Source: Rhodospirillales bacterium | GTDB lineage: Bacteria > Pseudomonadota > Alphaproteobacteria > Rhodospirillales > UBA2165 | Length of the DNA stretch: 64,000 nucleotides | Direction: 5' to 3' | NCBI GenBank assembly: GCA_012960465.1 | Contig: DUBF01000098.1 | Span: forward strand, 38,231 to 102,230 | Shown: piece after piece, positions 5,327-64,000 of the stretch | Position numbering within the stretch: position 1 is the stretch's first letter | Layout: each line of letters begins with the position of its first letter | Position numbers and translations under genes: made by a program | Notes under the pieces: generated by a model | What the model was told of the DNA's origin: nothing | Databases searched by the model: none | The model's input: only the letters and a program-made list of their open reading frames with translations

Positions 5327-5338
5327 CGGACAAAAAGC

Positions 5339-6421: not shown

Positions 6422-6513
6422 ATCTATTTGACTATTAAATTGGCACATTTTTTGCGTTTATAAAATAAAAGCCAGTGAATGGCTATAAAACTGTATGATA
6501 ATAGGTGTTAAAA

Positions 6514-7452
6514 ATGGCGCGAATTACACTACCCATTTCTTCAATTATTGCGGCAATGTTAATCTCCGGCGGAATATCAATCGCGGCGGAAACAATAGAA
6601 AATCCAAAAGAAAATAAACAAAACAACGAGTTAAGCTCTACCGACCATCTTTTATGTGAAAAACAAACCCGTGGTTTTGAAACAGCTCTTGGTATTCCTT
6701 CAAATTTACTCACCGCTATTTCTCTGGCGGAAACTGGTCAATGGAACCAAAAAAACAAGGTATTATTTGCCTGGCCATGGACGATAATGGCTAAAGGAAA
6801 AAGCTACTACATGCCTTCCAAACAAAGTGCTATCTCGAAAGTCCGTTCACTACAGGCCCAAGGTCTTCAAAATATTGATGTTGGCTGTATGCAAGTAAAC
6901 CTGTTTTATCACCCGAAAGCTTTTGAAACCCTAAATGCAGCTTTTGATCCTGAGAGGAATGTCGGTTATGCAGCAAATTTTCTTGCAGCACTTAATCAAT
7001 CTACACTTTCATGGGCACAAGCTGCTGCTAATTACCATTCAACAACGATATCAAAGAACCAGATTTATCTCAATAAAGTACTGGGTTTATGGCAAAAGGT
7101 TAGTAACAAAAGTATCCAATATTCTGGATTTCGCCGGTCACCAGATTCAGCTTATTCTGATCCAATAGGCCGCTCAGCCCAGACGGCTCTCCTAAAATCA
7201 AGGTTTCGGGCACGCCTAAGTGCTGAGCATAACGCAAAAAAACCTGATAAGAAAAAACACGACCTTGATGCCTGGCGTCGTGGTCGGTTTGACAAAAATT
7301 TATATCAAACGACAATGGCACTTCAAAAAGCTGAGCGAGCGCGCACCGATAAAGATTTCCTTAAAAAAGGGAAAAAAAGTTTTTTGCAAAGACGACAGTC
7401 TCAGCTTTCACTATGGCGAAAAAATCGGAACGGTTCAGCCTTTAGAGACTAA
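6514..7452 (+). CDS. Lytic transglycosylase (SLT domain) family protein
   Basis: LLTAISLAETGQW...NIDVGCMQVNLFYHPKAF...ANFLAAL...AAANYHS; N-terminal signal-like segment. ATG at 6514 preferred to 6505. Confidence 0.8.
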   Translation: MARITLPISSIIAAMLISGGISIAAETIENPKENKQNNELSSTDHLLCEKQTRGFETALGIPSNLLTAISLAETGQWNQKNKVLFAWPWTIMAKGKSYYMPSKQSAISKVRSLQAQGLQNIDVGCMQVNLFYHPKAFETLNAAFDPERNVGYAANFLAALNQSTLSWAQAAANYHSTTISKNQIYLNKVLGLWQKVSNKSIQYSGFRRSPDSAYSDPIGRSAQTALLKSRFRARLSAEHNAKKPDKKKHDLDAWRRGRFDKNLYQTTMALQKAERARTDKDFLKKGKKSFLQRRQSQLSLWRKNRNGSAFRD

Positions 7453-7667
7453 TTAGTTAGTAATTGGTAGAGTTGATTTTAACTTTCATTTACATCCAGC
7501 ATAAAATTACCTTTAACAATGAATACCAGCGCTAGATGAAAACTCATAATTGCGTTAATATCGGGCTAGTTATTAGGATGACTGCGCAATTAATGGATTG
7601 CAAAGCCCATCCTAAAACCTATTGTTTCTCATACTAAGTTTTCTAATCAAAAGTGGAGTTGTTTAAC

Positions 7668-8135
7668 TTGTCTAACTCAAATATTGGCGCTGAAACTGTT
7701 AAAATGAAACTTTCCGCAACCTGCCCCAGCCATGCTAGAGCAGATATTCGTGTAGGCGATCACGAGATTATTACGGATGAACCAGAGGCACGAGGAGGCT
7801 CGAATTTAGGGGCTGCGCCAGTACAAACGTTTATGGCTTCGTTAATTGGCTGCACAAACGTGATTACGAACAAATGTGCACGTGAATTAGGCGTTGAAAT
7901 TAACTCAATGCAAATTGAGATGGAAGTTGAACTTGACCGCCGCGGTATGATGCTAACAGAAGCCGTTCCGGTACCATTCCCAGCCATAAAACTTAATATT
8001 GATGTAAAAACTAATGCTACAGATGCCCAATGGAACGAAGTTACAGATTATCTTCATAAATTCTGCCCTATCGCTGTAGCTCTGCGAGCTGGTGGAACTA
8101 AAATCACCGAAAATTGGAATTTAATCCGAGACTAA
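7668..8135 (+). CDS. OsmC family protein
   Basis: PVQTFMASLIGCTNVITNKCARELGVEINSMQIEMEVELDRRG; start TTG 7668 (GGAG upstream) or 7653. Confidence 0.82.
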   Translation: MSNSNIGAETVKMKLSATCPSHARADIRVGDHEIITDEPEARGGSNLGAAPVQTFMASLIGCTNVITNKCARELGVEINSMQIEMEVELDRRGMMLTEAVPVPFPAIKLNIDVKTNATDAQWNEVTDYLHKFCPIAVALRAGGTKITENWNLIRD

Positions 8136-8140
8136 AAAAG

Positions 8141-8851
8141 ATGATCCCTATGAAGCCTAATTGGCAAGATAGCCCAAAACGTTCACATACAGAAGTAATA
8201 GAAGAGTTACTCGAACCCGCAAATGCAAAGATTATTGATGTTGGCTGTGGCGCAGGCCAAATTACACGTACCCTGACAGAGATGGGAGCCGAAGTAATAG
8301 GTATTGACCCCGGCAAACGTCAACTTGAACGTGCAAGAGCGGCAGAAACTGTAGGCAATGAAATTTATATTGAAGGTACGGCAGAAGACCTTCCCTTTGA
8401 AGATGAGGCGATGGATATTATCCTATTCTTCAATAGTTTCCATCATGTTCCCAGAAAGGAGTTTACTAGAGCTATAAAAGAATCACAACGAGTTCTGCGG
8501 CCCGGAGGTAAATTATTTTTTACGGAACCGATTGCAGAAGGACCCCAATTCGAGCTAAGTCGATTAATTAATGATGAAACAGAGATCCGAGCACTAGCCT
8601 ACGAAAGCATACTTTCTTTGCCTAATAAAGGCTTTCGGGCAATATTAGAAGTAATGTATATAACTGAAACTCGACATAAAAACTTTGAGCGCTTCAGGTT
8701 TAATTCAACCTCTATAAACCCAGCACGAGAACGCATTTTTGAGAAGCACAACATAGAAATCCGAGAAAGATTCGAAAATTTTAGCACCAAAGACCATGGC
8801 TATTTTGTCTTTCAACATCCCATTCGCGGTAATTTATTCGAGCGCCTTTAA
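8141..8851 (+). CDS. SAM-dependent class I methyltransferase
   Basis: IIDVGCGAGQITRTLTEMGAEVIGIDPG...ILFFNSFHHV...RVLRPGGKLFFTEP. Confidence 0.88.
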   Translation: MIPMKPNWQDSPKRSHTEVIEELLEPANAKIIDVGCGAGQITRTLTEMGAEVIGIDPGKRQLERARAAETVGNEIYIEGTAEDLPFEDEAMDIILFFNSFHHVPRKEFTRAIKESQRVLRPGGKLFFTEPIAEGPQFELSRLINDETEIRALAYESILSLPNKGFRAILEVMYITETRHKNFERFRFNSTSINPARERIFEKHNIEIRERFENFSTKDHGYFVFQHPIRGNLFERL

Positions 8852-8906
8852 ATCAACCTAAACTGGTTCATTACCAACTAAGTCTTCATAAAGATGTTTA
8901 TTTAGG

Positions 8907-11009
8907 TCAAACAAATTGAAAATCTTTAAAACCTTTTCCTTCTTCCGCTAGTCTTTTAAGTAGATTTGAGGGCTCCACCCAATCCCCATATTTTTTATTC
9001 AAATCACAAACCTTTTTATATACCTCGGGCAACCCAATGAGATCAGCATAAAACATTGGGCCACCCCAGTACCTTGGGAAACCATAACCATAATGCCAAA
9101 TGACATCGATATCACTTGAACGTATTGCCAAACCTTCTTCAAGCACTTTGGCTCCAGTATTAATCATCGAGTATAAATACGTTTCCAGAATCTCTTTGTT
9201 AGAGAATTTACGTCGCTCATAGCCGAGTTCAGCCGAGGTTCTAATGATTAAATCTTCGATAATTTGATCAGGTTCGCCTTTGCGGATACCATCAGCATAC
9301 TTATACCAACCAGCACTTGTTTTCTGACCATAACGTCCAGTTTCATAGACCCTATCAATAATGACTGACTGACGGCGACTACCGTATAATTTCTTCTGTT
9401 CTTGACGAATAAGAAAACGTACATCAACACCGGCTAAATCATTCATTGCGAAAGGTCCCATTGGAAATCCAAAATCATATATGACTTTATCGACCTGCCA
9501 AGGAAGAGCTCCTTCTTCAACCATAAACTCAGCAATGCGAGCTGAAATATGCAACATACGATTACCAACAAAACCATCACCAACCCCGACTAGAACGCCA
9601 GTTTTTCGAATTATTTTAGCAAGTCCCATAATGGTAGCAATGGTCGCTTTTGAACTTTTTTCGGTCCGAACGTTCTCAAGTAATTTCATTATATTAGCAG
9701 GGCTGAAAAAGTGAGTTCCACAAACCTTATCAGGACGCTTAGTCACGCTTGCTATTTCATTTATATTTAGAGTAGAGGTATTGCTTGCAAGAATAGTTTC
9801 TGGCTTGCAGACCTTGTCTAGCTCAGTAAAAATTTTCTTTTTTAAATCCATATCTTCAAAGACGGCCTCGATTACAATATCAACGTCCGCTATATCTTTA
9901 TAATCTGTTGTACCCGAAATTAAGTTAAGGCATTTATCCATATTATCTTGCATAATTCGGCCGCTTGAAACCGAACCAGCATAATTATTTCGAACCTTCT
10001 CAAGGCCAGCCGCAAGTGAAACTTGATCAACATCAACAACAACAACAGGAATACCAGCATTAGCAAAATTCATTGCAATCCCGCCGCCCATTGTTCCACT
10101 CCCAATAATCGCAGATTTATTAATCTTTTGAATTGGGATATCTTTTGGAATATCTGGAATTTTTGCAACCGTACGCTCCGCAAAAAACATATAGCGCATA
10201 GATTTTGCTTCATTACTATCCCGCAAACGTACAAAGACTGCCCGCTCATTTTCTAAACCGGCTTTAAAATCCATTGTCGTCGATGTTTCAACTGTATTGA
10301 TGCATTCAAAAGGTGATTCCATATTACGAGATTTCTTAGCAATTTTTTTACGCCAATCTTCAAATATTTGTGGGTCAATATTCGTTACTTTTTCATTTAA
10401 TTCGGACGTACGACGTGGCTCCTGACCGCTATCCGCTTTTTCCTCAGCAAATTCAATCGCTCTAGCCAACAAATCGCCTTCTACGATTTCATCAATCGCG
10501 CCCGCTTCAAAGGCCCTCTTTGCATCTATCGGTTTTCCGATAACTATCATTTCAAGAGCCAATTCTACTCCAACCAAACGAGGTAGTCGCTGAGTACCGC
10601 CACCGCCAGGAATAAAACCAAGATTAACTTCTGGCTGACCAACCTCTATAGTTGGCGCTGCCAATCGATAGTGACAGCTCATAGCGAGTTCCATCCCACC
10701 TCCCAGAGCTAGGCCATTCATTGCAACGACAACAGGCTTTGGTGATTGTTCGATATCTTGGATAAGATCTTCAAGTTCCGGGACACCTTCAGGTGTCTCC
10801 TTGCCAAATTCACTTATATCTGCACCCGCTACAAATATACGGCCCTCGCCAGTAATAACGACAGCTTTACAATCTTCGTCATTCATACATGCTTTCAAAT
10901 ATTGCGAGAGCCCCTTCCTAGTCGCAAAACTTATGGCATTTGCCGGTGGATTATTTATAGTAATAACGCCTATACCGCCTTTTTCTTCAAAATTAATAAC
11001 ATCGGTCAT
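8907..11009 (-). CDS. fadB: Bifunctional enoyl-CoA hydratase / 3-hydroxyacyl-CoA dehydrogenase
   Basis: N-terminal crotonase domain (VVAMNGLALGGGMELAMSCHYRLA), Rossmann GSGTMGGGIAMNFANAG, HFFSPANIMKLLE. Confidence 0.9.
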   Translation of the reverse strand: MTDVINFEEKGGIGVITINNPPANAISFATRKGLSQYLKACMNDEDCKAVVITGEGRIFVAGADISEFGKETPEGVPELEDLIQDIEQSPKPVVVAMNGLALGGGMELAMSCHYRLAAPTIEVGQPEVNLGFIPGGGGTQRLPRLVGVELALEMIVIGKPIDAKRAFEAGAIDEIVEGDLLARAIEFAEEKADSGQEPRRTSELNEKVTNIDPQIFEDWRKKIAKKSRNMESPFECINTVETSTTMDFKAGLENERAVFVRLRDSNEAKSMRYMFFAERTVAKIPDIPKDIPIQKINKSAIIGSGTMGGGIAMNFANAGIPVVVVDVDQVSLAAGLEKVRNNYAGSVSSGRIMQDNMDKCLNLISGTTDYKDIADVDIVIEAVFEDMDLKKKIFTELDKVCKPETILASNTSTLNINEIASVTKRPDKVCGTHFFSPANIMKLLENVRTEKSSKATIATIMGLAKIIRKTGVLVGVGDGFVGNRMLHISARIAEFMVEEGALPWQVDKVIYDFGFPMGPFAMNDLAGVDVRFLIRQEQKKLYGSRRQSVIIDRVYETGRYGQKTSAGWYKYADGIRKGEPDQIIEDLIIRTSAELGYERRKFSNKEILETYLYSMINTGAKVLEEGLAIRSSDIDVIWHYGYGFPRYWGGPMFYADLIGLPEVYKKVCDLNKKYGDWVEPSNLLKRLAEEGKGFKDFQFV

Positions 11010-11048
11010 TATTTAGCAATCTTTCTTTTATGAATTTTATATCTATTT

Positions 11049-12026
11049 TTATGCAAATCGGTCACGATTATGCGGTTGATTAAAATTAAGTTCCGGACCT
11101 TTAGCGACAATACCGCTGGGATTTACATTTGGCATAAGATGGTAGTAACCTCGCTTAATTTGCTCAAAATTAGTCACTCCTGAGATCCCAGGATATTGAT
11201 ACAGCTCCAAGGTAAAATTCCAAAGATTTGGATATTCATATATATGTTTTTTATTACATTTAAAATGACCAAAATAAACAATATCAAAACGCAGCAACGT
11301 AGAGAATAAGCGCCAATCCGCTTCCGTCAATCGATTCCCAATCAAATAGCGGTTGGAATTTAATCTTTCTTCTAACAGATCTAAGGTTGAAAATAATTTG
11401 TCATATGCTTCTTCATAGGCCTCCTGGGTTGCAGCAAAGCCAGTTCGATAAACCCCATTATTTATATTGAAATAAACTATATCATTGATTTCATCAATTT
11501 CTGCTCTCAAATCATCGGGGTAAAAATCTACTTTATTTTTGGTCAATCCATCAAAGGCGGAGTTGAACATCCTAATAATCTCGGCGGATTCATTATTCAC
11601 AATTGTTTGTGTTTTGATATCCCAAAGTGTTGGAACGGTTACCCTACCCGTATAAGAGGGATCAGCTTTAGTGTATAACTCATGTAAGTGATAAATGTTA
11701 TTTATAGTATCGGGAACAGCCCCCGGTTCATCATTAAAGGTCCATCCCTCATCCTTATAACTGGAACCACCAATAGAAATACTGATGATATCCTTTAGTT
11801 TTTTCAATTCGCGGAAAATAATTGACCGATAGGCCCAGGGACAATTGTGAGTTATATAGAGATGATAACGACCAATTTCCGCCTTATATCCTGATTTTCC
11901 CGATGGCCCAGCTGCGCCATCGTATGTCACCCAGTTTCGAAAACTACTTTCAGGGCGGACAAACTTTCCATCTTTATTTCGAAATTGATCATCATTTGAC
12001 CATTTTCCATCAATGAGCATACCCAT
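11049..12026 (-). CDS. Glutathionyl-hydroquinone reductase / xi-class glutathione S-transferase (YqjG-like)
   Basis: YHLYITHNCPWAYRSII (CPWA catalytic motif), LIGNRLTEADWRLFSTLLRFD. Confidence 0.88.
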   Translation of the reverse strand: MGMLIDGKWSNDDQFRNKDGKFVRPESSFRNWVTYDGAAGPSGKSGYKAEIGRYHLYITHNCPWAYRSIIFRELKKLKDIISISIGGSSYKDEGWTFNDEPGAVPDTINNIYHLHELYTKADPSYTGRVTVPTLWDIKTQTIVNNESAEIIRMFNSAFDGLTKNKVDFYPDDLRAEIDEINDIVYFNINNGVYRTGFAATQEAYEEAYDKLFSTLDLLEERLNSNRYLIGNRLTEADWRLFSTLLRFDIVYFGHFKCNKKHIYEYPNLWNFTLELYQYPGISGVTNFEQIKRGYYHLMPNVNPSGIVAKGPELNFNQPHNRDRFA

Positions 12027-12080
12027 TACATAATCTCCAACAAATAACCTAAAAAAGTATATAAAGAAGCTTATAATTTT

Positions 12081-12989
12081 TCATGTTTTAGAGCCCACTA
12101 TTTTTCGTTCTTTACGCTCACGCCGGGCGATATAAACAACGGAGGATAGAACGATGGAACCACCTATAAGTGTATAGATATTTGGCTCATCACCAAATAT
12201 AAAATAACCGACAATAGCTGCCCAAATCAGACGCGTAAAAGTGATTGGTTCGATAACACCAATATCAGAAAGTTTAATAGCCCAAGTAACTGCAAAATGA
12301 TTCATGATTGTGATGACAGACAATCCTATAATCCATAAAAATTGTTCCCAATTAGGTGCCTGCCAAAAATAAAATGCGACCGGGAAAGCAACAACAGTAA
12401 CCCAGAAAGCTTGAGAAAATACGATCGATCCAGGTGGGTCTGTCCTTGTAATAACTTTAACTAATAATTTAGTGACGGCAAAACAAAGAGCAGAAAAAAT
12501 AGCTGCCAAAACTCCAGGTGGAATACCTTCGACGGTCGGTCTAATAATTACCAGAGCCCCAACAATACCAACAATGAGAGCACCCCACCTCCAGGGTTCC
12601 GACTTCTCCCCTAAAAAAATAATCGCTCCCAAAACAGCAAATATCGGAGCCGTAAATCCTACAGCGGTATTTAAATCTAACGGTATTCGGGGTAAAGCCC
12701 AAAACCACCCAAATAGTGCCAAGGTAAAAAAAAACCCGTTAATAAAATGCAAGCCAGGCCGATTTGTTTTTATGCCTGTAATACCTTTGCGCAAAATCCA
12801 TGGCAAAAGAAGTAAAACCATAAAAAATGCCCGGATAAAGGTTATGAAGAATGGATGGAGTTCTTGGCCAAGTTGTTTACCAATAGCCCCATTCACACTA
12901 AGCATTAGGCCCGAAATAATTACTAATGCTATACCAATAAAACTATTTGAGTATCTACCAAAGTAATTATTTTTACTTGAAATTAGCAA
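12081..12989 (-). CDS. EamA/DMT family transporter
   Basis: About 10 hydrophobic helices in two repeats; typical EamA sequence. Confidence 0.85.
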   Translation of the reverse strand: MLISSKNNYFGRYSNSFIGIALVIISGLMLSVNGAIGKQLGQELHPFFITFIRAFFMVLLLLPWILRKGITGIKTNRPGLHFINGFFFTLALFGWFWALPRIPLDLNTAVGFTAPIFAVLGAIIFLGEKSEPWRWGALIVGIVGALVIIRPTVEGIPPGVLAAIFSALCFAVTKLLVKVITRTDPPGSIVFSQAFWVTVVAFPVAFYFWQAPNWEQFLWIIGLSVITIMNHFAVTWAIKLSDIGVIEPITFTRLIWAAIVGYFIFGDEPNIYTLIGGSIVLSSVVYIARRERKERKIVGSKT

Positions 12990-13156
12990 AATTGATTGTT
13001 TTCCATTTATATGATTATTCAGCAGATTTGAAAGATTTCAAACAAATTAAAACAATGAATACTGCTAAAATTTATAATCACTATTTAACTTATTTATATA
13101 GCGTATAGCTAGGATCTTAATCTTGGGTCATATTTGTCCAGATTGCAAAGCTCAGT

Positions 13157-13528
13157 CTATAGGCTATTGAAAACATCCTGAGCCCAGTGAAATGCCGAGT
13201 TAGCAGCAGGTACGCCAGCGTAAATAGCGCTTTGCAATATAACTTCCTTAATTTCATTCTTTGAAAGTTCATTGTTCAGCGCAGCTTTAACGTGCAGTTT
13301 GAATTCATCTTCGCGATGAAGTGCAATCATCATAGCTAGGGTAATGCAGCTTCTTGTTTTTCTCTCCAGACCTGGCCTAGTCCAAATTTCACCCCAGGCA
13401 TATCGTGTAATTAAATCCTGAAATTCTTCCGTAAATTCATCTTTTTTACTTTCAGCTCGATCTACGTGCTTTTCACCTAAAACTTCCCGTCGAACTTTCA
13501 TTCCGTTATTAAAAATTTCTTTTGCCAT
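13157..13528 (-). CDS. pcaC: 4-carboxymuconolactone decarboxylase
   Basis: YAWGEIWTRPGLERKTRSCITLAMMIAL...EVILQSAIYAGVPAANSAF. Confidence 0.92.
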   Translation of the reverse strand: MAKEIFNNGMKVRREVLGEKHVDRAESKKDEFTEEFQDLITRYAWGEIWTRPGLERKTRSCITLAMMIALHREDEFKLHVKAALNNELSKNEIKEVILQSAIYAGVPAANSAFHWAQDVFNSL

Positions 13529-13539
13529 ATTAATAATCC

Positions 13540-14322
13540 TTACTCTAGAAGAAAATCCATAACAGCGTTATTAAACTCGAGCGGCTTTTCGATATTCGAT
13601 AAATGGGCAACCCCTTTTATAATAGTCAACCTTGACCCGGTTATTTCCTGATTAATTAATTCACTATGCAAAACTGGCGTTGACGGATCAAGTTCACCAG
13701 CAATTATCAAAGTTGGGTTATTTATTTTCGCCAATTGACGGGTAAGGTTCATATCACGGACGGCTGCACAACATCCTGTATATCCCGAAATCTCGCAGGT
13801 AGTCATCATCGATTTTAACAATCCAATTTTTGGAGAATTTTTTTCTCTAAATTCTTCCGACAAAAATCTTGCAAGTCCAGCATCCACAATGGAAGCCATC
13901 CCTTTGGTCTTAACCGTATCAATCCGTTCTTGCCACGGATCTGATGGACTCAAATCAGAAGAAGTATTACAAACCACCAATTTATCAACTCGATCCCCAG
14001 CATGGATCCCTAGCCACATAGCAACCATTCCTCCCAGAGAAATACCACAGAGACTTGCTCTACTAATCTCTACATGATCCATAAGTGAAAGAATATCATT
14101 CCCAATATCATCTATCGAATACTCCCCCTCGGGTGAAGATGAGCCCCCATGCCCACGATTATCATATCTCAGGACCCTGAAATGATCAGTAAAACTTAAA
14201 ACCTGCTCTTCCCATAATTGTAGATTGGTAGTCAAGGAATTTGAAAGTATTAGTATTGGCAAATTCTTATTACCATCCCAGCGATAGTTGATATCAGCAC
14301 CATTAATATGAGCTAAAGGCAT
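13540..14322 (-). CDS. pcaD: 3-oxoadipate enol-lactonase
   Basis: Alpha/beta hydrolase (YDNRGHGGSSSPEGEYSI, CGISLGGMVAMWLG); start MPLAHINGAD at 14322 with upstream GAGG preferred to ORF start 14370; pca context. Confidence 0.9.
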   Translation of the reverse strand: MPLAHINGADINYRWDGNKNLPILILSNSLTTNLQLWEEQVLSFTDHFRVLRYDNRGHGGSSSPEGEYSIDDIGNDILSLMDHVEISRASLCGISLGGMVAMWLGIHAGDRVDKLVVCNTSSDLSPSDPWQERIDTVKTKGMASIVDAGLARFLSEEFREKNSPKIGLLKSMMTTCEISGYTGCCAAVRDMNLTRQLAKINNPTLIIAGELDPSTPVLHSELINQEITGSRLTIIKGVAHLSNIEKPLEFNNAVMDFLLE

Positions 14323-14338
14323 TTCGTTTTCCCCTCGA

Positions 14339-15652
14339 TTATTTAATGGCAGATGTTCCCAAATATCCATCTAAGACCAGCATTTGATCCAACTCATCTA
14401 CTGAAATTTCATTCATAATGCGTTTATCTGACTTAAGTATTTCTGATAGGTGTGTGTTTTGAAAAGAAGCTTTGTTGCATGCTTCGTCAATAATCTCACT
14501 AGCCTTTGCCTTACCAACTTTCTTTGATAATTCAAGCATCACTCTTTCCGACATGAATAGACCATTTAACGCATCAAGGTTATATTCCATCTTTTCTGGA
14601 TTTACCTCTAAACCCTCACACATATCGGCTACGGCTGATATTGAGCCAGCAGCTGCCTCAAATATAGCAGGAATTGTAACCCATTCTACTTGCCACCCGC
14701 CAAGGGCTCTCTCATGCTCGTGCGGCATAGCATCGAGAAGGGTCGCTAGTAAATGAGGCGTTCGTTTGGCTCCTGCTAGAGCTACAAGACAATTCACGGG
14801 GTTTCGCTTATGAGGCATTGCAGAAGATCTACCCCTGCTTGAATCTGATTTCTCTGAAACCTCACCAACCTCGGCCTGCAGTAAAAGCGAAATATCCAGA
14901 GCTATCTTTCCGAGTCCGCCAACTAATATTGAAACGGAAGAGCATAAGGCCACAATCCGATCGCGATGGGTATGCCATACGTCATCAGGTAAACCCAGCT
15001 CTAATATCTCGGATAGAGACTCTCTGACCCTTTGGCCATCAGGTCCTAGTGAAGATAAGTTTCCTGCCGCTCCACCAAACTGCAGCACAGAAGCCTCAGT
15101 CGCATTAATCTCAATCCTTTTCCAGTTCCGTAGTAACGCTGACTTCCATCCCAGAACCTTCTGCCCAAATGTTATGGGAACCGACGGCTGGAGTAGAGTG
15201 CGTCCAATCATAATTTGATTACCATACTTATTTATAAGATTTTCCAATGCAGAAACTAGGCGTTGGACATCCCTTTCGAGTATAACTAATGCTTTTTTCA
15301 ACTGAATTATTATTGCGGTATCAATTACGTCTTGGCTCGTTGCTCCATAATGGACCCAACCAGAAGCAGGCTTATCTTTAACTGCAACTAAGTTGGTAAG
15401 GTGTTGAACAAGCGGTACAACGATGGTTCCATGCTGGCTAGCTAACTCTGATAAGTCAGGAATAGAGAACTTAGAAACTTGACAATACTTTGCTATGGCG
15501 TCAGCTATAGCTGGTTCAAATATATTACACTTGGACCCAGCCGCAGCTAAAGCTTTCTCAAAATCAAGCATAGCTTGCAACATTCCTATGTCATCAAATA
15601 TAGACATCATCTGAGGCGTAGTAGTCATTCTTCTAAAGATTTGGTTTGTCAT
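14339..15652 (-). CDS. pcaB: 3-carboxy-cis,cis-muconate cycloisomerase
   Basis: Fumarase/ASL superfamily signature (SSAMPHKRNPVNC), pca cluster context. Confidence 0.9.
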   Translation of the reverse strand: MTNQIFRRMTTTPQMMSIFDDIGMLQAMLDFEKALAAAGSKCNIFEPAIADAIAKYCQVSKFSIPDLSELASQHGTIVVPLVQHLTNLVAVKDKPASGWVHYGATSQDVIDTAIIIQLKKALVILERDVQRLVSALENLINKYGNQIMIGRTLLQPSVPITFGQKVLGWKSALLRNWKRIEINATEASVLQFGGAAGNLSSLGPDGQRVRESLSEILELGLPDDVWHTHRDRIVALCSSVSILVGGLGKIALDISLLLQAEVGEVSEKSDSSRGRSSAMPHKRNPVNCLVALAGAKRTPHLLATLLDAMPHEHERALGGWQVEWVTIPAIFEAAAGSISAVADMCEGLEVNPEKMEYNLDALNGLFMSERVMLELSKKVGKAKASEIIDEACNKASFQNTHLSEILKSDKRIMNEISVDELDQMLVLDGYLGTSAIK

Positions 15653-15696
15653 TTCGTTCAGTTTTTTATGGAAAGAAAAGATCTGTAGCTCTTCAT

Positions 15697-16278
15697 TTAA
15701 ACATCAAAGAAAACTGTCTCCATCTTACCTTGCAAGTGAATATCGAAAGTATATTCAAGGATTCCATCATTACCTTCTTTGCGCTGCGCGATGAGTGTGT
15801 TCCGGGCAGAATCATCATCGATTGAATTAAGTACGGAATCCTCAGTATTAGCTTTTACCTCGTCTGAGAAATAAATACGTGTCACCTGTTGTTTTAGCAT
15901 ACCACGGGCAAACACATTCACAGATACATGGGGAGCCTGAAGCGTATTACCGCGACCAGGAACCCGACCTGGTTTTAATGTTATAAAAAAGAAATGACCA
16001 TCTTTATCTGTACAAGACCTGCCAAAACCAGAAAAATCATTTATTATTTCGAAATCTGATGTGTCTTCTGGATGATCATATTTCCCAAATATATTTGCCT
16101 GCCAAATTTCGATTACTGCATCCGGAACCACCTGACCTTCTCCATCATAAACACGGCCAGACAGCTTCAGAGCACCTTCCACCGTTTCAGGGACAATATA
16201 TTCCTGACCATCCGCTTTAAGTGCAATGGTAAGAAATGGACCCACAGTTTGCGAAGCTGTTATACCTAATTTGCTCAT
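15697..16278 (-). CDS. pcaG: Protocatechuate 3,4-dioxygenase alpha subunit
   Basis: Intradiol dioxygenase fold, TVGPFLTIALK...IEIWQANIFGKY...APHVSVNVFARG. Confidence 0.92.
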   Translation of the reverse strand: MSKLGITASQTVGPFLTIALKADGQEYIVPETVEGALKLSGRVYDGEGQVVPDAVIEIWQANIFGKYDHPEDTSDFEIINDFSGFGRSCTDKDGHFFFITLKPGRVPGRGNTLQAPHVSVNVFARGMLKQQVTRIYFSDEVKANTEDSVLNSIDDDSARNTLIAQRKEGNDGILEYTFDIHLQGKMETVFFDV

Positions 16279-16280
16279 GG

Positions 16281-16991
16281 CTAATCCTGACCTTCAAATG
16301 GTGTGGCTTCACGACCACGCAAAACAAAATCAAATTTAAAACTTAACGCAAAATCAGGTTCGGTGGTATCCAGATCAAACTTTGATATCATCCGCTTCCT
16401 GACAGCCTCGTCAGAAATTGAATTAAAGATAGGATCAAATGCGAAAAGCGGGTCATCGGGAAAGTACATTTGAGTGATTAAACGAGTAGCAAACGCAGGC
16501 CCAAATAAGGAAAAATGAATATGAGCAGGTCTCCATGCATTATAGTGGTTTCCCCAAGGGTACGCTCCAGGTTTAATAGTGGTAAACTTGTACTCCCCTT
16601 TTTCGTTAGAGACTATACGTCCCTTTCCAGTAAAGTTTGGATCAAGTGGAGCCGGATGCTGGTCAACCGCATGTTTATATCTACCAGCAGCATTACATTG
16701 CCAAATCTCAATTAAGGTATTCGGTACAGGCTTCCCATCCTCATCCAACACCTTCCCACTAACATAAATTCTCTGACCCTGAGCCTCTTGCCCATCAACA
16801 ATTGATAAATCACTCTCACCAGCATCTATTTTTTCATTCTTAAAAAGAGGACCTGTAACCTCAGTTAAAGTATGCTCAATTTTAATAGGTTTTCTCTGAG
16901 GAGACCTATGAACAGTACTCTTATAACCTTCATATCGAGCGGGCGGATGATCATTTTTGCTCTTCCTCGAATATTCTAATGGTTCACTCAT
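16281..16991 (-). CDS. pcaH: Protocatechuate 3,4-dioxygenase beta subunit
   Basis: TLIEIWQCNAAGRYKH...YPWGNHYNAWRPAHIHFSLFGPAF. Confidence 0.94.
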   Translation of the reverse strand: MSEPLEYSRKSKNDHPPARYEGYKSTVHRSPQRKPIKIEHTLTEVTGPLFKNEKIDAGESDLSIVDGQEAQGQRIYVSGKVLDEDGKPVPNTLIEIWQCNAAGRYKHAVDQHPAPLDPNFTGKGRIVSNEKGEYKFTTIKPGAYPWGNHYNAWRPAHIHFSLFGPAFATRLITQMYFPDDPLFAFDPIFNSISDEAVRKRMISKFDLDTTEPDFALSFKFDFVLRGREATPFEGQD

Positions 16992-17171
16992 ATCCTACTC
17001 CTCAATAACTAAACCTAGCCAGAGACACCTAACCCAAATTTACCCTAGTAATAAACGTATGCACTTGCAATATAACGGCAGTTAGCCAACAAATCTTTTA
17101 TAAATCTAAAGCTTCCTTGAAATTCATATCTGTAATATGCAAAGAGCAACTCCAATTAACACTCACGAAGA

Positions 17172-17942
17172 TTAATTTAAACCAATAAAACCGTCATACA
17201 ACAGCTTTATACCGGTCGCAAATAAGAGTGTCATAATGGCACGATAGAAAAGGACATCATCAATTCTACGCTGAATCCAAAGACCAATAAAAATCCCGAT
17301 CGGGACAATCGGAAGTAGTATAAGTGACGTCGAAAGATTAGTAATATTAAACTGACCTAACCACCAATAGGGACCAATTTTTGCGTAATTAACGTATGTA
17401 TAAAATATTGCTAGCGTTCCCATGTAGATCGATTTATCAAGGCGCTGCGGGATCATGTATACATTTAGGGGCGGCCCACCCGAATGAGCAACAAAACTCG
17501 TAAAGCCACAAACTGCGCACCAAAAACCACCCTTAATGATATTGGGCCCAACGGGTGGAGGCGGAATTTTCTTACGTAAATAGTCAATAAACTTTAATGA
17601 AGAAAAAATAACCGCAATACTGCCAATAATTAGCTTAATAAATGCAGGGTCTAGATATTTAAAGCTAAGAGTTCCAACAATTACACCGATAGTCGCGCCA
17701 GGGATCATTATCGACAGGTTTTTTCGGTCCCAGGTTCTACGGAATGCCCAAATCGCAAAGATATCTGCAATACATATACTCGGTAATAACAAGGCAGCGG
17801 CTTGAGGTACAGAAACAACTAATGCCATTAAAGGAGTAGCGAGACTCCCAGTTCCTCCAATCCCCGCTTTAGAGATCCCAATAGTTATTACCGCGGGTAT
17901 TGCAACTAAATAGAATAGTGGATCGGTTATTAAGACTATCAT
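17172..17942 (-). CDS. TauE/SafE family sulfite/anion exporter-like membrane protein
   Basis: SKAGIGGTGSLATPLMAL...GFTSFVAHSGGPPLNVYMIPQRLDK. Confidence 0.85.
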   Translation of the reverse strand: MIVLITDPLFYLVAIPAVITIGISKAGIGGTGSLATPLMALVVSVPQAAALLLPSICIADIFAIWAFRRTWDRKNLSIMIPGATIGVIVGTLSFKYLDPAFIKLIIGSIAVIFSSLKFIDYLRKKIPPPPVGPNIIKGGFWCAVCGFTSFVAHSGGPPLNVYMIPQRLDKSIYMGTLAIFYTYVNYAKIGPYWWLGQFNITNLSTSLILLPIVPIGIFIGLWIQRRIDDVLFYRAIMTLLFATGIKLLYDGFIGLN

Positions 17943-18139
17943 TTCTTATCTAACCTAGAACCATCAATGAGAACAGGAATTAACTTCAGTTTCCAGACGA
18001 TAGCCTTGGCTAACTTAACACTGATCGAAGTATCATCCAGCACAACTGTAGCCACGGGCTTCAAACCTTCCGAAGCAGCCGTAGCTAAGACGCCATCGTT
18101 GATAGCTTCAGCTTGGTCAAGTACAATTTTTGTCGTCAA
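17939..18139 (-). pseudogene. Short ORF resembling the N-terminus of a GlcG/HbpS-like (DUF336) protein, possibly truncated or degenerate
   Basis: MTTKIVLDQAEAINDGVLATAASEGLKPVATVVLDD... matches the usual N-terminal pattern, but only 66 aa and the expected downstream core is absent. Confidence 0.35.
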
Positions 18140-18247
18140 ATTCTCTCTATAGATTTTAGCTTGTAAGGGCTATCCCACCTAGATGCTATCCATGAAAAAT
18201 TCCTGACTGACTATGCCACGGAGCTTTTTGTTGCGTTAAAATTTTTC

Positions 18248-19603
18248 CTAACTGGGCGCAAATAACTTCTCTGGCAACCAAGTGGCAATTTCAGGAAAAT
18301 TAATGATCAAAATCATACCAAGCAACATAATCATCCAATAAGGGGTCGAACTTTTAAAGATTGTCATTACATTAATGTCTGGATCAAACTGCTGGATCGC
18401 CGACTTTACAGTATAAACCAATAGTCCAAATGGCGGGGTATAGAGACCCGCTTCGATAGCGATGATACCTATGATAGCAAAAGCAATCGGATCAAAACCT
18501 AATTTTACCGCAATTGGCGCAAAGATGGCCGCGGTCAAAAGCATGATCGATATAGAATCAATAATCATACCAAGGGCAAACCAGATCGCCACCATAACCG
18601 TAATTACCATCCAAGGTTCCATCCCAGAACCAAGGAATACGCCTTCAATCGCATTGGCCATACCAGTCATCGCTAATGTACGAGAATAAAGTGCTGCCGT
18701 AACAAGAAGAAGTAGGATTGGCGCCGATGTCTTTCCCACAGAAAGGATGGATTCAACAATATCCTTATAACGCATGCCTTTTATAAGACCCAACATCAGA
18801 CCAATAAATGCACCCGCGCCCGCGCCTTCCGTTGGTGTAAAAAAGCCAAACCAAATACCGCCGAGCACAGCAACAATGACAAGAATAATACCAAACAAGC
18901 TTATCAGGAATTGACCGGTTGATACTTCGGCAACTTCTTCGATTGCAAGGTTAGCTTTTACGCCGCCACCGACCAGGCTCGGGTTCATAATAGCCCTAAT
19001 AAAAACATAAATAATGAATAACGACGCCAACATGAGGCCTGGAATTACGCCGGCAGCAAAAATTTGGCCAATCGATTGCTCAGTCAAGATGCCCCATACA
19101 ATCATTAAAACGCTCGGAGGAATAAGCATGCCCAGGCAACTTGATCCGGCTATCGCGCCGAGCGCAAAACCTTTATGATAATTAAACCGTCGCATTTCTG
19201 GATAGGCGATGCGAGAAAAAGCTGCAGCCGAAGCAATACTAACGCCAGTCACAAAAGAAAATAGCGCATTACCCAAGACCGTTGCAATTGCGAGGCGGCC
19301 CGGAATTTTTCTCAAAAGCCGGTTAATTCCACGGTAAACATCGGTAACTGTTCCTGACTTACCAATGAACTCACCCATAAGCATAAATAATGGAATAACC
19401 GCAAAAACATAATCACGGATTGCTTCATATGCGGTCGCAGCCAGCATCGATTGCACGGTATGGAATGCATTCATATCCGCACCGGTTACCAAAAAAATAC
19501 CAAGTGCACTTGTCATTCCAAGCGCAATCGCAATATGAACGCCAATAGCAACAAGACCAATTAGGCAGACAACCAGCAAAACGGCAATATTTACTTCAAA
19601 CAC
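18248..19603 (-). CDS. dctM: TRAP transporter large permease (DctM)
   Basis: 12-TM DctM-type sequence; GSSCLGMLIPPSVLMIVWGILTEQSIGQIFAAGVIPGL. Confidence 0.94.
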   Translation of the reverse strand: MFEVNIAVLLVVCLIGLVAIGVHIAIALGMTSALGIFLVTGADMNAFHTVQSMLAATAYEAIRDYVFAVIPLFMLMGEFIGKSGTVTDVYRGINRLLRKIPGRLAIATVLGNALFSFVTGVSIASAAAFSRIAYPEMRRFNYHKGFALGAIAGSSCLGMLIPPSVLMIVWGILTEQSIGQIFAAGVIPGLMLASLFIIYVFIRAIMNPSLVGGGVKANLAIEEVAEVSTGQFLISLFGIILVIVAVLGGIWFGFFTPTEGAGAGAFIGLMLGLIKGMRYKDIVESILSVGKTSAPILLLLVTAALYSRTLAMTGMANAIEGVFLGSGMEPWMVITVMVAIWFALGMIIDSISIMLLTAAIFAPIAVKLGFDPIAFAIIGIIAIEAGLYTPPFGLLVYTVKSAIQQFDPDINVMTIFKSSTPYWMIMLLGMILIINFPEIATWLPEKLFAPS

Positions 19604-19634
19604 TGTTTTAATCCCTATCTATTTGCTGATGATA

Positions 19635-20165
19635 TTAATGTTGATTAATATCGAGATCAGTCTCTAAATCCACTATATCAGGCCGAAAAACGTCGACATA
19701 GGCCATTACAATATAATTGATCATTGCAAGGGCGCTACCGATCAATACGGTCCAACGTGCTGGCCACGAAGGCACCCTCAGTGCGCCTTCGCCCTCAAAT
19801 TCGTTCTCCACGTATGACAAAATACTTTCTTCCCAACCTCCAGTGATGATCATCAGAAAAAAAGCAGCGCCTAAAAGATAACCAATACCCAATAAGCAAC
19901 GCTGCACCCCACCCGAAAAGCGTGAGACGAGAAAATCTGCTTTGAGCATCGAGCGACTACGAATAGCATAACCAGCTTGTAAAAAGACAATAATGACAAT
20001 GGAAGCAGCTACAATCTCAGCCGTACCGTGAATGGGTGTATCAAAAACACCCCGCCCAATAATGGCGGCCAAAACCAAAAATGCGAGGCCAAACGCCCAA
20101 GCTGCTGCTACCACCATAAGAAATTTTGATAATTTATCGCTGAATGTAATTATCGACATCAGCAT
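19635..20165 (-). CDS. dctQ: TRAP transporter small permease (DctQ)
   Basis: 4-TM protein between dctM and dctP. Confidence 0.9.
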   Translation of the reverse strand: MLMSIITFSDKLSKFLMVVAAAWAFGLAFLVLAAIIGRGVFDTPIHGTAEIVAASIVIIVFLQAGYAIRSRSMLKADFLVSRFSGGVQRCLLGIGYLLGAAFFLMIITGGWEESILSYVENEFEGEGALRVPSWPARWTVLIGSALAMINYIVMAYVDVFRPDIVDLETDLDINQH

Positions 20166-20207
20166 TCCCTCTAGAATATTTTTTTTAATAATTGAGTGTA
20201 AGAAATA

Positions 20208-20246
20208 ATTACCGGCTGAAAACAGCTTATGTTTTCAGCCGGTAAT
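20208..20246. promoter_or_regulatory. Long perfect stem-loop in the dctP-dctQ intergenic gap
   Basis: ATTACCGGCTGAAAAC-AGCTTAT-GTTTTCAGCCGGTAAT: 16-bp perfect inverted repeat with 7-nt loop. Confidence 0.85.
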
Positions 20247-20269
20247 AAACTCAGATAACAACTAAGCCG

Positions 20270-21355
20270 TTATTTAACGACGTAGCGCACTGGCCATTTA
20301 TAACCAACTTTCTCAGCCGCATCCAAAGTTGCATTCAAGATAGCTTTTGCAGGCATACCTTCTTTTTCCAAAGTATTGGCATGCATTTGTGGCCATTTAG
20401 CCAGTTTTTTTGCCCAAGCTAAACGCGGTCCTGGTCCAAGCTCTTTAACGGTAATGTTCTTACGCAACCAAGCCATATCTTTTTCATAGCCCTTTTTGTT
20501 GAATGTACCGGTAAGAACGCGATAACGATCAGCAACTTCCATGAAGATTGGCTTAACTTCTGCTGGCAAACCTTTCCAGAAACGGTTGTTAACCGTCAAC
20601 GCGTGCCAGGTGATCGAGCCAAAGCCGATAGTCGTGTAATATTTTCCAACTTCATGAAGCTTAAAGACTGGACCCCAAGCACTTGGGAACATTATGCCTC
20701 CTTCAGCAACACCAGTTTTAATTTTCTGATACCAGCCAGGAAGACCATCCGTTACTGGAATGATACCGATACCAGCTTGTTTCATCCAGTTAAGGTTCAA
20801 GCCTGCGCCCAAAATCTTATGACCTTTAAGATCACCAACGGAGTTCCAATCAAAGTTTGTTCCGAGATTATAGCCGCCATCTCCAATGATCGCTAGCAGC
20901 GTCTGGTTAAATTTTTGGAATCGTTTAGCAAGACTAGGAAACTGCTTATAAACAGACGTTGCTATGGCAACAGACTGAACTGGGTCCATAGTGCCAAAAG
21001 GCAACATGATTTGGAATGCATGCATTTTCAACTTAGATGCTTCGAAGCAATAACAGAAGCCTCCAACGTCAATAACACCGTTTTGCACACCCTCAAAAAC
21101 TTCAAACACTTTGACGATTGATCCACTATAACCTTCAATAAAGTTAATTTTATGGCTGGTTTTAGCTTCCACAGCTTTTTTCAATTCTGTTTGAAAAAAG
21201 TTTTTCATCAATCCTGCATAGACGACTGTCGGCGGATGTCCAGATCCTATTCTAACATTGATGGTTTTAGCATCAGCGCCAGGCGCAGTTGCTAATGATC
21301 CAGCTACAAAACCTATTGCTGCTAGACCTAGTAGAGATTTCTTTAATAAATTCAT
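20270..21355 (-). CDS. dctP: TRAP transporter substrate-binding protein (DctP family)
   Basis: Signal peptide MNLLKKSLLGLAAIGFVAGSLATAPGADA; KIKTGVAEGGIMFPSAWG. Start taken at 21355, not the ORF start 21535. Confidence 0.9.
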   Translation of the reverse strand: MNLLKKSLLGLAAIGFVAGSLATAPGADAKTINVRIGSGHPPTVVYAGLMKNFFQTELKKAVEAKTSHKINFIEGYSGSIVKVFEVFEGVQNGVIDVGGFCYCFEASKLKMHAFQIMLPFGTMDPVQSVAIATSVYKQFPSLAKRFQKFNQTLLAIIGDGGYNLGTNFDWNSVGDLKGHKILGAGLNLNWMKQAGIGIIPVTDGLPGWYQKIKTGVAEGGIMFPSAWGPVFKLHEVGKYYTTIGFGSITWHALTVNNRFWKGLPAEVKPIFMEVADRYRVLTGTFNKKGYEKDMAWLRKNITVKELGPGPRLAWAKKLAKWPQMHANTLEKEGMPAKAILNATLDAAEKVGYKWPVRYVVK

Positions 21356-60854: not shown

Positions 60855-61355
60855 CTAATTTAGATCGACCCTGATTTTCCTACTTAATAAAACACTTGAA
60901 AAGCTCAGGGTCCCTAGGATAACTGATACAATTATGTTATAAACGGTCATTGACAATCCAAACAAGGTCCAGTCGATCTCATCACATTTTTTTGGCATTG
61001 TCGACATCAACTGACTTTGAAAATTTTCAAAACTTATTGGAAGCTTGTTAAAATTACCACAACCTGTTGCTGCATTCCACCAATGCTGTTCAACACCATA
61101 ATGATAAAAGGCTAAAAATGCACTAATCAAAAAAACAATACCAATAACTCTAAGCGTCCCTTGCTGATTAGTCGTTTTAATATGAAGCGCTAAGCCGGCA
61201 AACAAGATCGCTGCAAAATACGGGATACGCTGATATTTACACAATATACAAGGTTCAAGACCATACATTAGCTCGGCCACAAATACGATTAAAAGAACGC
61301 AAATACTTGCTAGCAGTATTAGTCGTAAAATTATTTTATCAGTATTTTTAGTCAT
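60855..61355 (-). CDS. dsbB: Disulfide bond formation protein DsbB family
   Basis: YGLEPCILCKYQRIPYF; periplasmic Cys pair region. Confidence 0.87.
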   Translation of the reverse strand: MTKNTDKIILRLILLASICVLLIVFVAELMYGLEPCILCKYQRIPYFAAILFAGLALHIKTTNQQGTLRVIGIVFLISAFLAFYHYGVEQHWWNAATGCGNFNKLPISFENFQSQLMSTMPKKCDEIDWTLFGLSMTVYNIIVSVILGTLSFSSVLLSRKIRVDLN

Positions 61356-61367
61356 TCTAATTGTACC

Positions 61368-61949
61368 CTAAAGTAGAAATTTAATTAGAAAAAAACTACC
61401 TATTAATAAAACAACAAATAAAATAAATAATAGCCCAAGTCGGCGTTCGATAAATGCACGGGCAGGATCGCCATACTTCCAGAGTAATGCTGCAATAACA
61501 AAAAAGCGCGTACCTCGAGCTAGAATTGACCCAATTATAAAAATCGTTAAGTTCAGGCCAGTAGCACCACTAAGTATCGTAATTACTTTATAAGGGAATG
61601 GAGTAATACCAGCAAAAAATACTGCCCATGCCCCCCATTGGTTATATGTAATCTGAAACTCCGAAAAATTTTTCGTATAACTGTAAAATTCTAATACTGG
61701 TTTACCGATTTGTTCGTACATAAAAAAACCAATCCCATACCCAAATATACCTCCAATTACTGAAGCCGCGGTACAGATACTTGCCGCAAGCCAGGCACGA
61801 TCCCTCATAGCTAAAACTATCGGTATGAGTAATATATCTGGGGGTATAGGAAAAATCGAACTTTCTATTAATGAAATCAGAGCCAAAGCCATAAGGGCGT
61901 ATTTTTTGCCCGCTAGATTTAAAATCCAATCATATAGTTTACGCAACAT
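61368..61949 (-). CDS. DedA/SNARE-associated (YqaA-like) membrane protein
   Basis: ESSIFPIPPDILLIPIVLA...FFAGITPFPYKVITILSGATGL. Confidence 0.87.
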   Translation of the reverse strand: MLRKLYDWILNLAGKKYALMALALISLIESSIFPIPPDILLIPIVLAMRDRAWLAASICTAASVIGGIFGYGIGFFMYEQIGKPVLEFYSYTKNFSEFQITYNQWGAWAVFFAGITPFPYKVITILSGATGLNLTIFIIGSILARGTRFFVIAALLWKYGDPARAFIERRLGLLFILFVVLLIGSFFLIKFLL

Positions 61950-62200
61950 AATTTTTTATCCTAAGAACGGTGTCTTTACTAATGCGTACTCATTCTTTTA
62001 GCAAACAACTTAGTCTCATTTTAAATATGACGCCCAGCCTGTTTTGTATTTAAACAAATTTCAAAATCTAAGTATTGAATTGGTTAAGTATTCTGTATCT
62101 ATGGGGCTTTGAATTTGATAATAATTACTAATCGAAATGTTTTGTAGTGGTTGACCCAGCCTGAACTCATTGTATTATTTGCCGCGATTAGAAAAATAAT

Positions 62201-62287
62201 GCCCCCGTGGCGGAACTGGTAGACGCGCGGGATTCAAAATCCCGTTCTCGCAAGGGAGTGTCCGTTCGATTCGGACCGGGGGCACCA
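62201..62287 (+). tRNA. tRNA-Leu (CAA), CCA encoded
   Basis: GCCCCCGTGGCGGAACTGGTAGACGCGCGGGATTCAAAATCCCGTTCTCGCAAGGGAGTGTCCGTTCGATTCGGACCGGGGGCACCA; stem CGGGA/TCCCG around TTCAAAA. Confidence 0.95.
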
Positions 62288-62334
62288 TTTCCCAATTTTC
62301 ATTATCCAATACTTTCAAATGAAAGGATTGACAT

Positions 62335-62625
62335 ATGCCAAAAACCGACAGCCCTCAACTCGCTAAGTTGCATGAAGGCGCCGTAGTTATTGAGCGTCGC
62401 AAAGGCTCCCCTAATTTACAAATTCGAATGAAGATTCCAGGTGGGAAGCCAACTCGTTTCCAATCAAAAACATCCAATCTGGAAGATGCCAAATCAGTCG
62501 CAACCAAAGCATACCTAAAAATGTTAGGCCGCGTTGAACACGGAATGTCGCCCCTCGAAAAACATGGAAAATTTGGCCTCATCTGCGACGAATATTTGGC
62601 GACATTACAAAAGGTGATTGATTAT
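62335..62625 (+). pseudogene. Truncated tyrosine recombinase/integrase N-terminus next to tRNA-Leu
   Basis: VVIERRKGSPNLQIRMKIPGGKPTRFQSKTSNLEDAKSVATKAYLKMLGRVEHGMSPLEKHGKFGLICDEYLATLQK; beyond about 62625 the ORF only reads antisense through the next gene, with no catalytic domain. Confidence 0.65.
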
Positions 62626-63987
62626 TCACTTGGTGTCCGCGTTGGCACAAATGACAATACGCCGAATCACCTCCACATTCATGACCAGGGCGACAATACC
62701 CAGGGTGGCAAGAGGCAGGTTGAAGAGGGCGCCAAGGAAGATTATGAATACTCGCACGTCGCGGCCCAGTCGAAAGTATGTGGCACCTTTCAACCTTTGT
62801 GCCATCAACCCGTCATACTTGTCCGCCGTATAGCTGTTTAGGAACGATCCCACAATCGCCGCAAACCCCAGCACGATGGACAGGTTTGTGTCGGTCGTGG
62901 CAAATTCGTGCCACATCAGACCAAACAGCAGAACGGCGTCGGCATATCGGTCGAGGACCGCGTCGAACCAGCCGCCAAAATCGCTTTGCGAATGTTTCAG
63001 CCGGGCGATCTCGCCATCGCAACCATCGATGATTGAGGCCAGTTGGGCCAACGCCCCGCCGATGGCCAGTGCAGGGTAGCCGCTCACGGCCATAAATCCT
63101 GCGGCAACGCAGGATAGCATCCACGAGATTAGAGAAATTTGGTTGGGCGTCACCGTTGTGCACACCAGATAGCGGCTCAACCACCGGGATATCGGTCGGT
63201 TGAGATGTCGTGAAACCGGCCCGTCTCGAGTCTTGCGACCCTGGTCGCGCATCAAACGTCGTTCGGCTTCACGCAGTGCGTCGGGCGTGTCCACATCGAG
63301 CCATGACATACCTGTCACATCGACGGTTTTCGCCTGGCCTTCATCCGCCAACTCCCTGAGCCCATCAGAAAGTCCATGCCGATTCTTTGCCGCAGCGTGC
63401 TTGAGGCCCTCAAACAGGCCGGATGTACAAAGCATAACTCCGGTATCGCCGGCATCCCAATCACCAAGTAATTTTTCGATTTTCTGAATGCGTCCGTCAT
63501 CAAACTTGACCCGCGTGACGTCGTCGAGATCGAAGATGCCGTCTTTGTCACAGTCCACAGCGAGGCACATTTCTCCGGGTGCGGGAGGATTGTCGGCCAG
63601 TGCTTGTGCAATACCTGGGTCGAATATATGATCAATCATGATCAGGAAGAAAGCTGCCTCCCCGGTGTGATTCTTGGCTGCCAAGGCACTGGCACCGTTC
63701 CCCCGCTCCCAGTTTTCGGCTTCGATGAAGTCAATCGTGACGCCGCGACGTTGGGCGATATCGGCAAAATGGGTCCTAACGGTTTTGGCCTCATGACCGA
63801 GAGTTACGAAAAATCGTCGGACACCGGTGCCCAGCAATGTGCAAACGACCCGTTCCGCGAGGCTTAGCCCAAGCACCTTGGTTAGGGGTTTTGGTGTCTT
63901 CATTTGCGGTCGAAGCCGCGATCCCAATCCTGCAGCTAGAATCAGAGCTATCTCCGGCGTTGCGTTTACTCCATCAGTCTTTTCCAT
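62626..63987 (-). CDS. Fused nucleotidyltransferase and CDP-alcohol phosphatidyltransferase (IPCT-DIPPS-like)
   Basis: LILAAGLGSRLRPQMKTPKPLTKVLG; IDGCDGEIARLKHSQSDFGGWFDAVLDRYAD (CDP-alcohol phosphotransferase motif); GC-richer than the rest of the window. Confidence 0.85.
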   Translation of the reverse strand: MEKTDGVNATPEIALILAAGLGSRLRPQMKTPKPLTKVLGLSLAERVVCTLLGTGVRRFFVTLGHEAKTVRTHFADIAQRRGVTIDFIEAENWERGNGASALAAKNHTGEAAFFLIMIDHIFDPGIAQALADNPPAPGEMCLAVDCDKDGIFDLDDVTRVKFDDGRIQKIEKLLGDWDAGDTGVMLCTSGLFEGLKHAAAKNRHGLSDGLRELADEGQAKTVDVTGMSWLDVDTPDALREAERRLMRDQGRKTRDGPVSRHLNRPISRWLSRYLVCTTVTPNQISLISWMLSCVAAGFMAVSGYPALAIGGALAQLASIIDGCDGEIARLKHSQSDFGGWFDAVLDRYADAVLLFGLMWHEFATTDTNLSIVLGFAAIVGSFLNSYTADKYDGLMAQRLKGATYFRLGRDVRVFIIFLGALFNLPLATLGIVALVMNVEVIRRIVICANADTK

Positions 63988-64000
63988 GGCTCAAAACATC

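Follow-up and report, generated by a model that had tools for sequence, protein, structure and literature searches.

The window, by which we mean the whole 64,000-nucleotide stretch of DNA analysed, probably holds the left-end relic of an element that integrated at tRNA-Leu(CAA) and was cut by an operon, and this element appears to be kin to a group of islands that bring a replacement tRNA with them, in many cases with an intron that would protect it. A broader reading, in which integrase-less cassettes of 1.2–1.5 kb with the same ends belong to the same system and the whole offers a route by which group I introns spread and persist in bacterial tRNA genes, we regard as evenly poised.

A truncated integrase beside tRNA-Leu(CAA)

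A sequence-only reading of the window had proposed a tRNA-Leu integration site followed by the N-terminus of an integrase, and both proposals hold. The tRNA-Leu(CAA) gene, which is intronless, occupies positions 62201–62287 of the plus strand (ARAGORN and allele comparison), and 47 bp past it, at 62335, begins a plus-strand reading frame whose first ~94 codons (62335–62616) correspond, by similarity to intact relatives, to the arm-binding N-terminus and the first part of the core-binding domain of a tyrosine integrase. In a comparison with 15 sequences, this N-terminus was 38.5% identical over 96 amino acids to the intact 393-aa integrase of genome G151 (E 5e-14); whole-genome searches with it returned G059 (E 5e-7) and G146 (E 7e-6), and further matches came from G205 and G214. 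Searches of Pfam, NCBIfam and PHROGs with the 97-aa or 168-aa protein gave no match, and it was genome searches, the profile databases being silent, that recovered the relatives.

The frame had also been said to collapse at about 62.61–62.63 kb. Alignment does place the end of the likeness to intact integrases there (about residue 95, 62617–62634), but the frame itself stays open to 62841 (168 aa). The proposed loss of the catalytic part is borne out, in that the remnant lacks the catalytic residues that its relatives possess. The integrase of the window is dead, and the element is presumably no longer able to excise itself. Two further expectations came to nothing. A search of the genome with PF00589 for the missing C-terminus led to nine places, those inspected having N-termini of their own or being of other types, and contig C32, which continues the operon at the end of the window (see below), holds no significant integrase remnant. 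As for a second att copy, the 24-nt 3′ end of the tRNA is present in a single copy, with up to 3 mismatches allowed, in an assembly that is possibly incomplete; since the integrases of the relatives recombine in the anticodon loop and the tRNA is not rebuilt, the 3′ end of the tRNA may be the wrong att candidate.

Related integrases lie on islands that split host tRNA genes

With the intact integrase of the sister species G007 as query, 17 of 317 genomes of the order gave matches at E <1e-20, and an integrase profile found matches in 28 of the 385 genomes of a class sample at E <1e-30. The typical layout in the order consists of nucleotides 1–39 or 1–40 of a tRNA-Leu gene, ending in the anticodon loop, followed by 100–250 bp in which tandem repeats spaced at 10–12 bp are often present, a complete tRNA-Leu gene and the integrase gene; in a second layout the complete tRNA comes after the integrase. 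A half tRNA stands upstream of the complete tRNA or of the integrase in G007, G151, G172, G150, G227, G214, G205, G101, G188 and G146, and the missing 3′ half (nucleotides 31–87) was found at the other end of the island where contigs were long enough. The two island ends share a core of 7–17 bp in the anticodon loop, and the host tRNA, mostly a tRNA-Leu, is not rebuilt.

When the islands were cut out in silico, 12 of 13 trials left a whole host tRNA with no intron. The excised lengths include 27,543 bp in G325 (a single-contig genome), 20,357 bp in G415, 12,867 bp in G059 and 6,216 bp in G188; further excisions concerned two nested islands in G205 and another island for which either of two right ends may be taken. 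The two halves of the host gene in G325 and G188 form acceptor-stem pairs with one another and are clearly unlike the tRNA of the island, so that a simple local duplication can be dismissed. As the comparison shows, the integrase of such elements acts on a short core within the anticodon loop, and the halves of the host tRNA are left at the island ends; to judge from this disruption, the island's own complete tRNA would take over.

Arm-like tandem repeats with a spacing of 10–12 bp occur in islands of both sizes, large and small (p<0.05 in 14 of 25), and a TACAG motif is enriched in the arms of some islands and not common to all. Phage collections contained hardly any relatives of the integrase, and the relatives found on plasmids had no adjoining tRNA. 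Elsewhere in the window's own genome, an intact 402-aa relative of the integrase family adjoins tRNA-Met (G000:C181, 412–1521, minus strand; L295, L315).

Group I introns in the island tRNAs

Group I introns were found in the complete tRNA of 11 integrase-bearing islands, those of G007, G084, G158, G188, G059, G268, G277 and G009 in the order and of G325, G415 and G696 in the class sample. Their Rfam scores are 63.3 bits (G084), 60.0 (G158), 59.0 (G007), 57.4 (G188), 56.0 (G325), 53.2 (G059), 52.4 (G268), 52.2 (G415), 51.4 (G277), 44.5 (G696) and 40.8 (G009), the last two falling below the gathering score of 50. Six of the first 8 islands have the intron in the anticodon loop, as do the three found later. 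The intron follows nucleotide 35 in tRNA-Leu(UAA), that is, the first base of the anticodon, which we take to be the position of the cyanobacterial intron, and nucleotide 34 in the tRNA-Leu(CAA) of G268 and G277; at both sites it falls within the core at which the host gene was divided. The introns of G007 and G084 sit in the D-loop, after nucleotide 20, and G011 also has a D-loop intron. ARAGORN misnames some of the intron-bearing tRNAs, among them that of G179, called Ile where the exons suggest Thr(CGU), and that of G011, called Pro where they give Leu; in these cases the exons were read by eye.

Of the integrase-bearing islands with a complete tRNA, about half lack an intron. The set of islands that came from the intron search is weighted towards introns; among those that came from the integrase search alone, the intron-bearing share of islands with a complete tRNA is roughly a third to two fifths. 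In the order, 43 intron-bearing tRNAs were examined, 8 of them with a tyrosine recombinase within 100 bp, the remainder having none detected in the fetched flanks by a home-made profile that may miss distant recombinases. A host tRNA half is present at all 8. In the window's own genome, a group I intron (52.8 bits) interrupts a tRNA-Leu(UAA) gene that lies 57 bp short of a contig end (G000:C201, 11071–11360; L251).

Splicing of the RNA copy would yield a normal tRNA, and in the DNA the intron would break up the core, so that the integrase could neither attack the island's tRNA nor admit a second island there. We think that the introns probably shield the replacement tRNA from the integrase; the D-loop introns of G007, G084 and G011 may not block recombination. 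An event that an in-core intron would be expected to prevent is seen in G205, where a 15.5-kb island lies within the anticodon loop of the intronless replacement tRNA of another such island (G205:C45, context positions 1649–21341; L187, L188), a single case and not proof.

The introns might instead be passengers with no protective role, the tRNA having been taken from a host whose gene already bore one, and of the alternatives that we weighed this one, though the less favoured account, keeps the most force. About 25 of the 43 intron-bearing tRNAs have their intron in the same place and show no sign of an island, island and chromosomal introns are interleaved in a tree without support, and some introns are in the D-loop. 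Set against these points is a tight association: 17 of the 43 intron-bearing tRNAs adjoin a half tRNA, whereas no 5′ half was seen within 2 kb of any of 24 ordinary tRNAs. The split host tRNAs themselves had no intron, and in most islands the intron falls within the 7–17 bp core.

Small islands without an integrase

Six islands of 1192–1495 bp lack an integrase and have an intron-bearing tRNA between both halves of the host gene. They are built of a half tRNA, an arm region, a tRNA with a group I intron, about one open reading frame and the other half tRNA, and several have arm-like tandem repeats. Three interrupt tRNA-Leu(UAA) (G124, G257, G074), and the others tRNA-Leu(CAA) (G033), tRNA-Thr(UGU) (G155) and apparently tRNA-Thr(CGU) (G179); the loci are L246 (reverse strand, 9554–11047), L252, L231, L261, L264 and L250. 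Excision of each of the six in silico restored an intact, intronless host tRNA. Their reading frames encode a 287-aa membrane protein, a 219-aa protein with an 8xMP domain, a 308-aa protein with DUF7946/DUF7947 and proteins of 266 and 280 aa, the frame in G179 having 93 aa only; PADLOC gave no match to these single genes. Three more such islands (G223, G153, G020) have one half and are interrupted by a contig end. A longer island with an intron in tRNA-Arg (G230) gave no clean tRNA on excision and was left out.

With ends like those of the larger islands, the small islands are best read as non-autonomous elements that would be moved in trans by related integrases. They would be among the smallest mobile units to give the host a tRNA in return for an insertion site.

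Comparison with known systems

Replacement tRNAs are already known from phages. In the tRNA-dependent lysogeny of mycobacteriophages (Guerrero-Bustamante and Hatfull 2024, PMC10865867), as here, a tyrosine integrase uses a short common core (~10 bp) in a tRNA gene, the host tRNA is not rebuilt, and a complete tRNA of the same isotype carried by the element replaces that of the host. That phenomenon was said to need study outside Actinobacteria; the islands described here are alphaproteobacterial, lie mostly at tRNA-Leu, often have a group I intron and in some cases are small and without an integrase. Rhizobium phages vTRX32-1 and relatives (PMC8631192) likewise integrate at tRNA-Leu through a 12-bp core and bring a complete replacement tRNA-Leu, and loss of the core in the phage tRNA has been proposed to prevent super-integration. 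Those phages, of 42–45 kb, have however lost the core by sequence change, whereas here it is split by an intron.

The idea that tRNA introns guard tRNA genes from integration is that of Randau and Soll, as reported in PMC3293823 and PMC4390854, and concerns archaeal introns; PMC3293823 calls it an idea without direct evidence. It shares with our proposal an intron in the attachment site that would block recombination, and differs from it in that the introns here are bacterial group I introns and are carried by the integrating elements themselves. They belong to the same RNA family as known bacterial tRNA group I introns (Rfam RF00028), but are found on integrated islands beside split host tRNAs and in some cases in the D-loop. 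In the open-access library searched, no paper describes a replacement tRNA that is carried by an island and also has a group I intron, and in that literature the group I intron in an island's replacement tRNA is apparently new.

Two puzzles are addressed by these observations, namely why bacterial tRNA genes have group I introns that lack a homing enzyme, with the question of how such introns pass from one species to another, and whether a tRNA intron guards its gene against integration, as was proposed for archaea (PMC3293823). Here the introns ride on integrating elements and lie in the very base pairs of recombination, and the split host genes record the event.

The tRNA-Leu locus of the window

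Two genes anchor the tRNA-Leu locus in synteny, both on the minus strand: a DsbB-like gene (60855–61355), whose orthologues in sister species stand beside tRNA-Leu(CAA), and a gene for a VTT-domain membrane protein (61368–61949; PF09335, 34.0 bits), whose orthologues there are 72–79% identical. Upstream of the tRNA, on the plus strand, lies a predicted promoter (62151–62178; TTGACC, 16 bp, TATTAT), the function of which we propose from conservation, as the block AGTGGTTGACCCAGC...TAT is kept at the same locus in G001, G003 and G005. The tRNA itself has the same allele as that of G001. It is 1 nucleotide away from the intron-bearing tRNA-Leu that G011 has at this locus and 2 nucleotides from the island-borne tRNA of G007, the exons being compared in both cases. 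In other sister species the alleles at this locus differ from it in 9–16 of 87 nucleotides, and such variety at one syntenic locus is the pattern that would be expected from repeated replacement.

No group I intron interrupts the window's tRNA (ARAGORN), no half tRNA was found upstream of it or elsewhere in the assembly, and no arm repeats were seen in the window. The tRNA was considered as the element's own replacement tRNA, a reading weakened by the conserved native promoter upstream. With a native promoter, no half and no intron, the window is to be taken as a related relic rather than as an island with the defining features of the group, and the grounds for placing it in the family are the integrase N-terminus, the spacing between tRNA and integrase, and the tRNA allele. 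An intronless tRNA at a native promoter could have arisen, for example, by recombination between two 39-bp tRNA copies, with loss of part of the left end; alternatively, the allele may be native and have later been taken up by islands.

It is unlikely, in our view, that the element was an ordinary tRNA island, integrated at the 3′ end with the tRNA rebuilt, later reduced by deletion and unrelated to replacement tRNAs. A complete tRNA followed by an integrase is indeed the classical layout of such islands, and the tRNA stands at its native promoter with an allele common to G001. The assembly has no displaced 3′ fragment, however, the most closely related integrases act in the anticodon loop and leave the host tRNA in halves, and the divergence of alleles at the locus, up to 16 of 87 nucleotides, also speaks against it.

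Several observations were made at related loci. At the VTT locus of G011 (L232, G011:C51, reverse strand, ~7018–7325), the tRNA-Leu(CAA) has a group I intron in its D-loop, with no integrase or tRNA half seen nearby. In G006 a C-terminal fragment resembling another kind of integrase (L157, G006:C149, 2207–2690) lies 5 bp from the 3′ end of a tRNA-Leu(CAA) that is inverted relative to the window, which marks the locus as a repeated target. The window's genome also has a decayed tRNA-Leu, consisting of the 5′ ~60 nucleotides of another allele type (L006, G000:C60, 2212–2271, minus strand), that resembles the G004 allele and the split host gene of G007.

A di-myo-inositol-phosphate operon adjoins the integrase remnant

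The remnant had been described as abutting the stop codon of a convergent GC-rich gene, and this stop codon is at 62626–62628. The gene (62626–63987, minus strand) is a fused IPCT/DIPPS gene with PF12804 and PF01066 above cut-off, its best NCBIfam model being NF041135 at 271.7 bits, under the model's cut-off of 580. The change in composition noted by hand count is likewise upheld, the 60-nt lines at 62461, 62881 and 63001 having 38%, 55% and 67% GC. The maximum-likelihood breakpoint of GC is at 62631, where it steps from 40% to 55% (log-likelihood gain 46; 4-kb windows placed elsewhere in the stretch reach no more than 14.8), and the low-GC side matches the host norm of 40.5%.

The window ends where contig C98 ends, and its last 98 bp (63903–64000) recur unchanged at the beginning of contig C32. 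There an IMPase-like gene and MIPS (930–2054) continue the operon on the same strand. On C32, GC drops to 39% at position 2041, low GC thus returning ~2.04 kb into the contig, and with host-like DNA on both sides the GC-rich block is identified as a foreign operon of ~3.4 kb. The proposed island boundary with a deletion or insertion is therefore correct as to the deletion/insertion junction, but the change in GC is the end of the foreign operon and not the edge of an island. In the history that we propose, insertion of this laterally acquired operon cut the integrase at about codon 94, and the remainder would have been lost.

The operon, with its fused IPCT/DIPPS, IMPase and MIPS genes, is predicted to code for di-myo-inositol phosphate synthesis. 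Its gene order is repeated in relatives, and the same gene set, the synthase with 78–85% protein identity, is found in MAGs filed under several groups. G006, a sister species, has a copy with 95% DNA identity over 1175 bp, the identity (BLAST) beginning at 62617–62625, 9 bp beyond the stop codon of the synthase gene, but it is flanked there by other, truncated genes, from which it follows that the operon was acquired, or moved, more than once. Next to that operon are a shortened M16 peptidase gene and then a fatty-acid desaturase-like piece (L043, G006:C375, 1493–1963). Deep-sea Thaumarchaeota (PMC7265257) also have a fused IPCT/DIPPS gene with an inositol monophosphatase gene in a small, laterally acquired block in a non-thermophile; the alphaproteobacterial operon differs in including MIPS and in being inserted in an integrase gene.

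In G006, orthologues of C32 genes come less than 4 kb after the group DsbB–VTT–tRNA-Leu. In G004, four C32 genes have their orthologues after the tRNA-Leu, with order and orientation unchanged. The genes at the end of C98 and those of C32 adjoin each other, without the operon, in sister species, so the join of C98, operon and C32 lies between parts that belong together. An assembly chimera, raised earlier, in which a GC-rich contig end from another organism or place was misjoined to the integrase, might be suspected from the 245-contig metagenome-like bin (2.9% estimated contamination), from the junction's distance of only 1.4 kb from the contig end, from a one-base difference between C98 and C32 just before their overlap and from the joining of the same operon to a mosaic of truncated genes in G006, but is quite improbable given the host composition on both flanks of the operon, the adjoining of the flanking genes in sister species, the same end point of the operon in G006 and the absence from the assembly of a second copy of the junction that could cause a misjoin.

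A leader of ~110 nucleotides ahead of the operon is conserved, with 68% mean identity (upstream of MIPS in L052–L066 and L075; L042, 2052–2194, minus strand); its consensus fold is weak, with six pairs changed on both sides.
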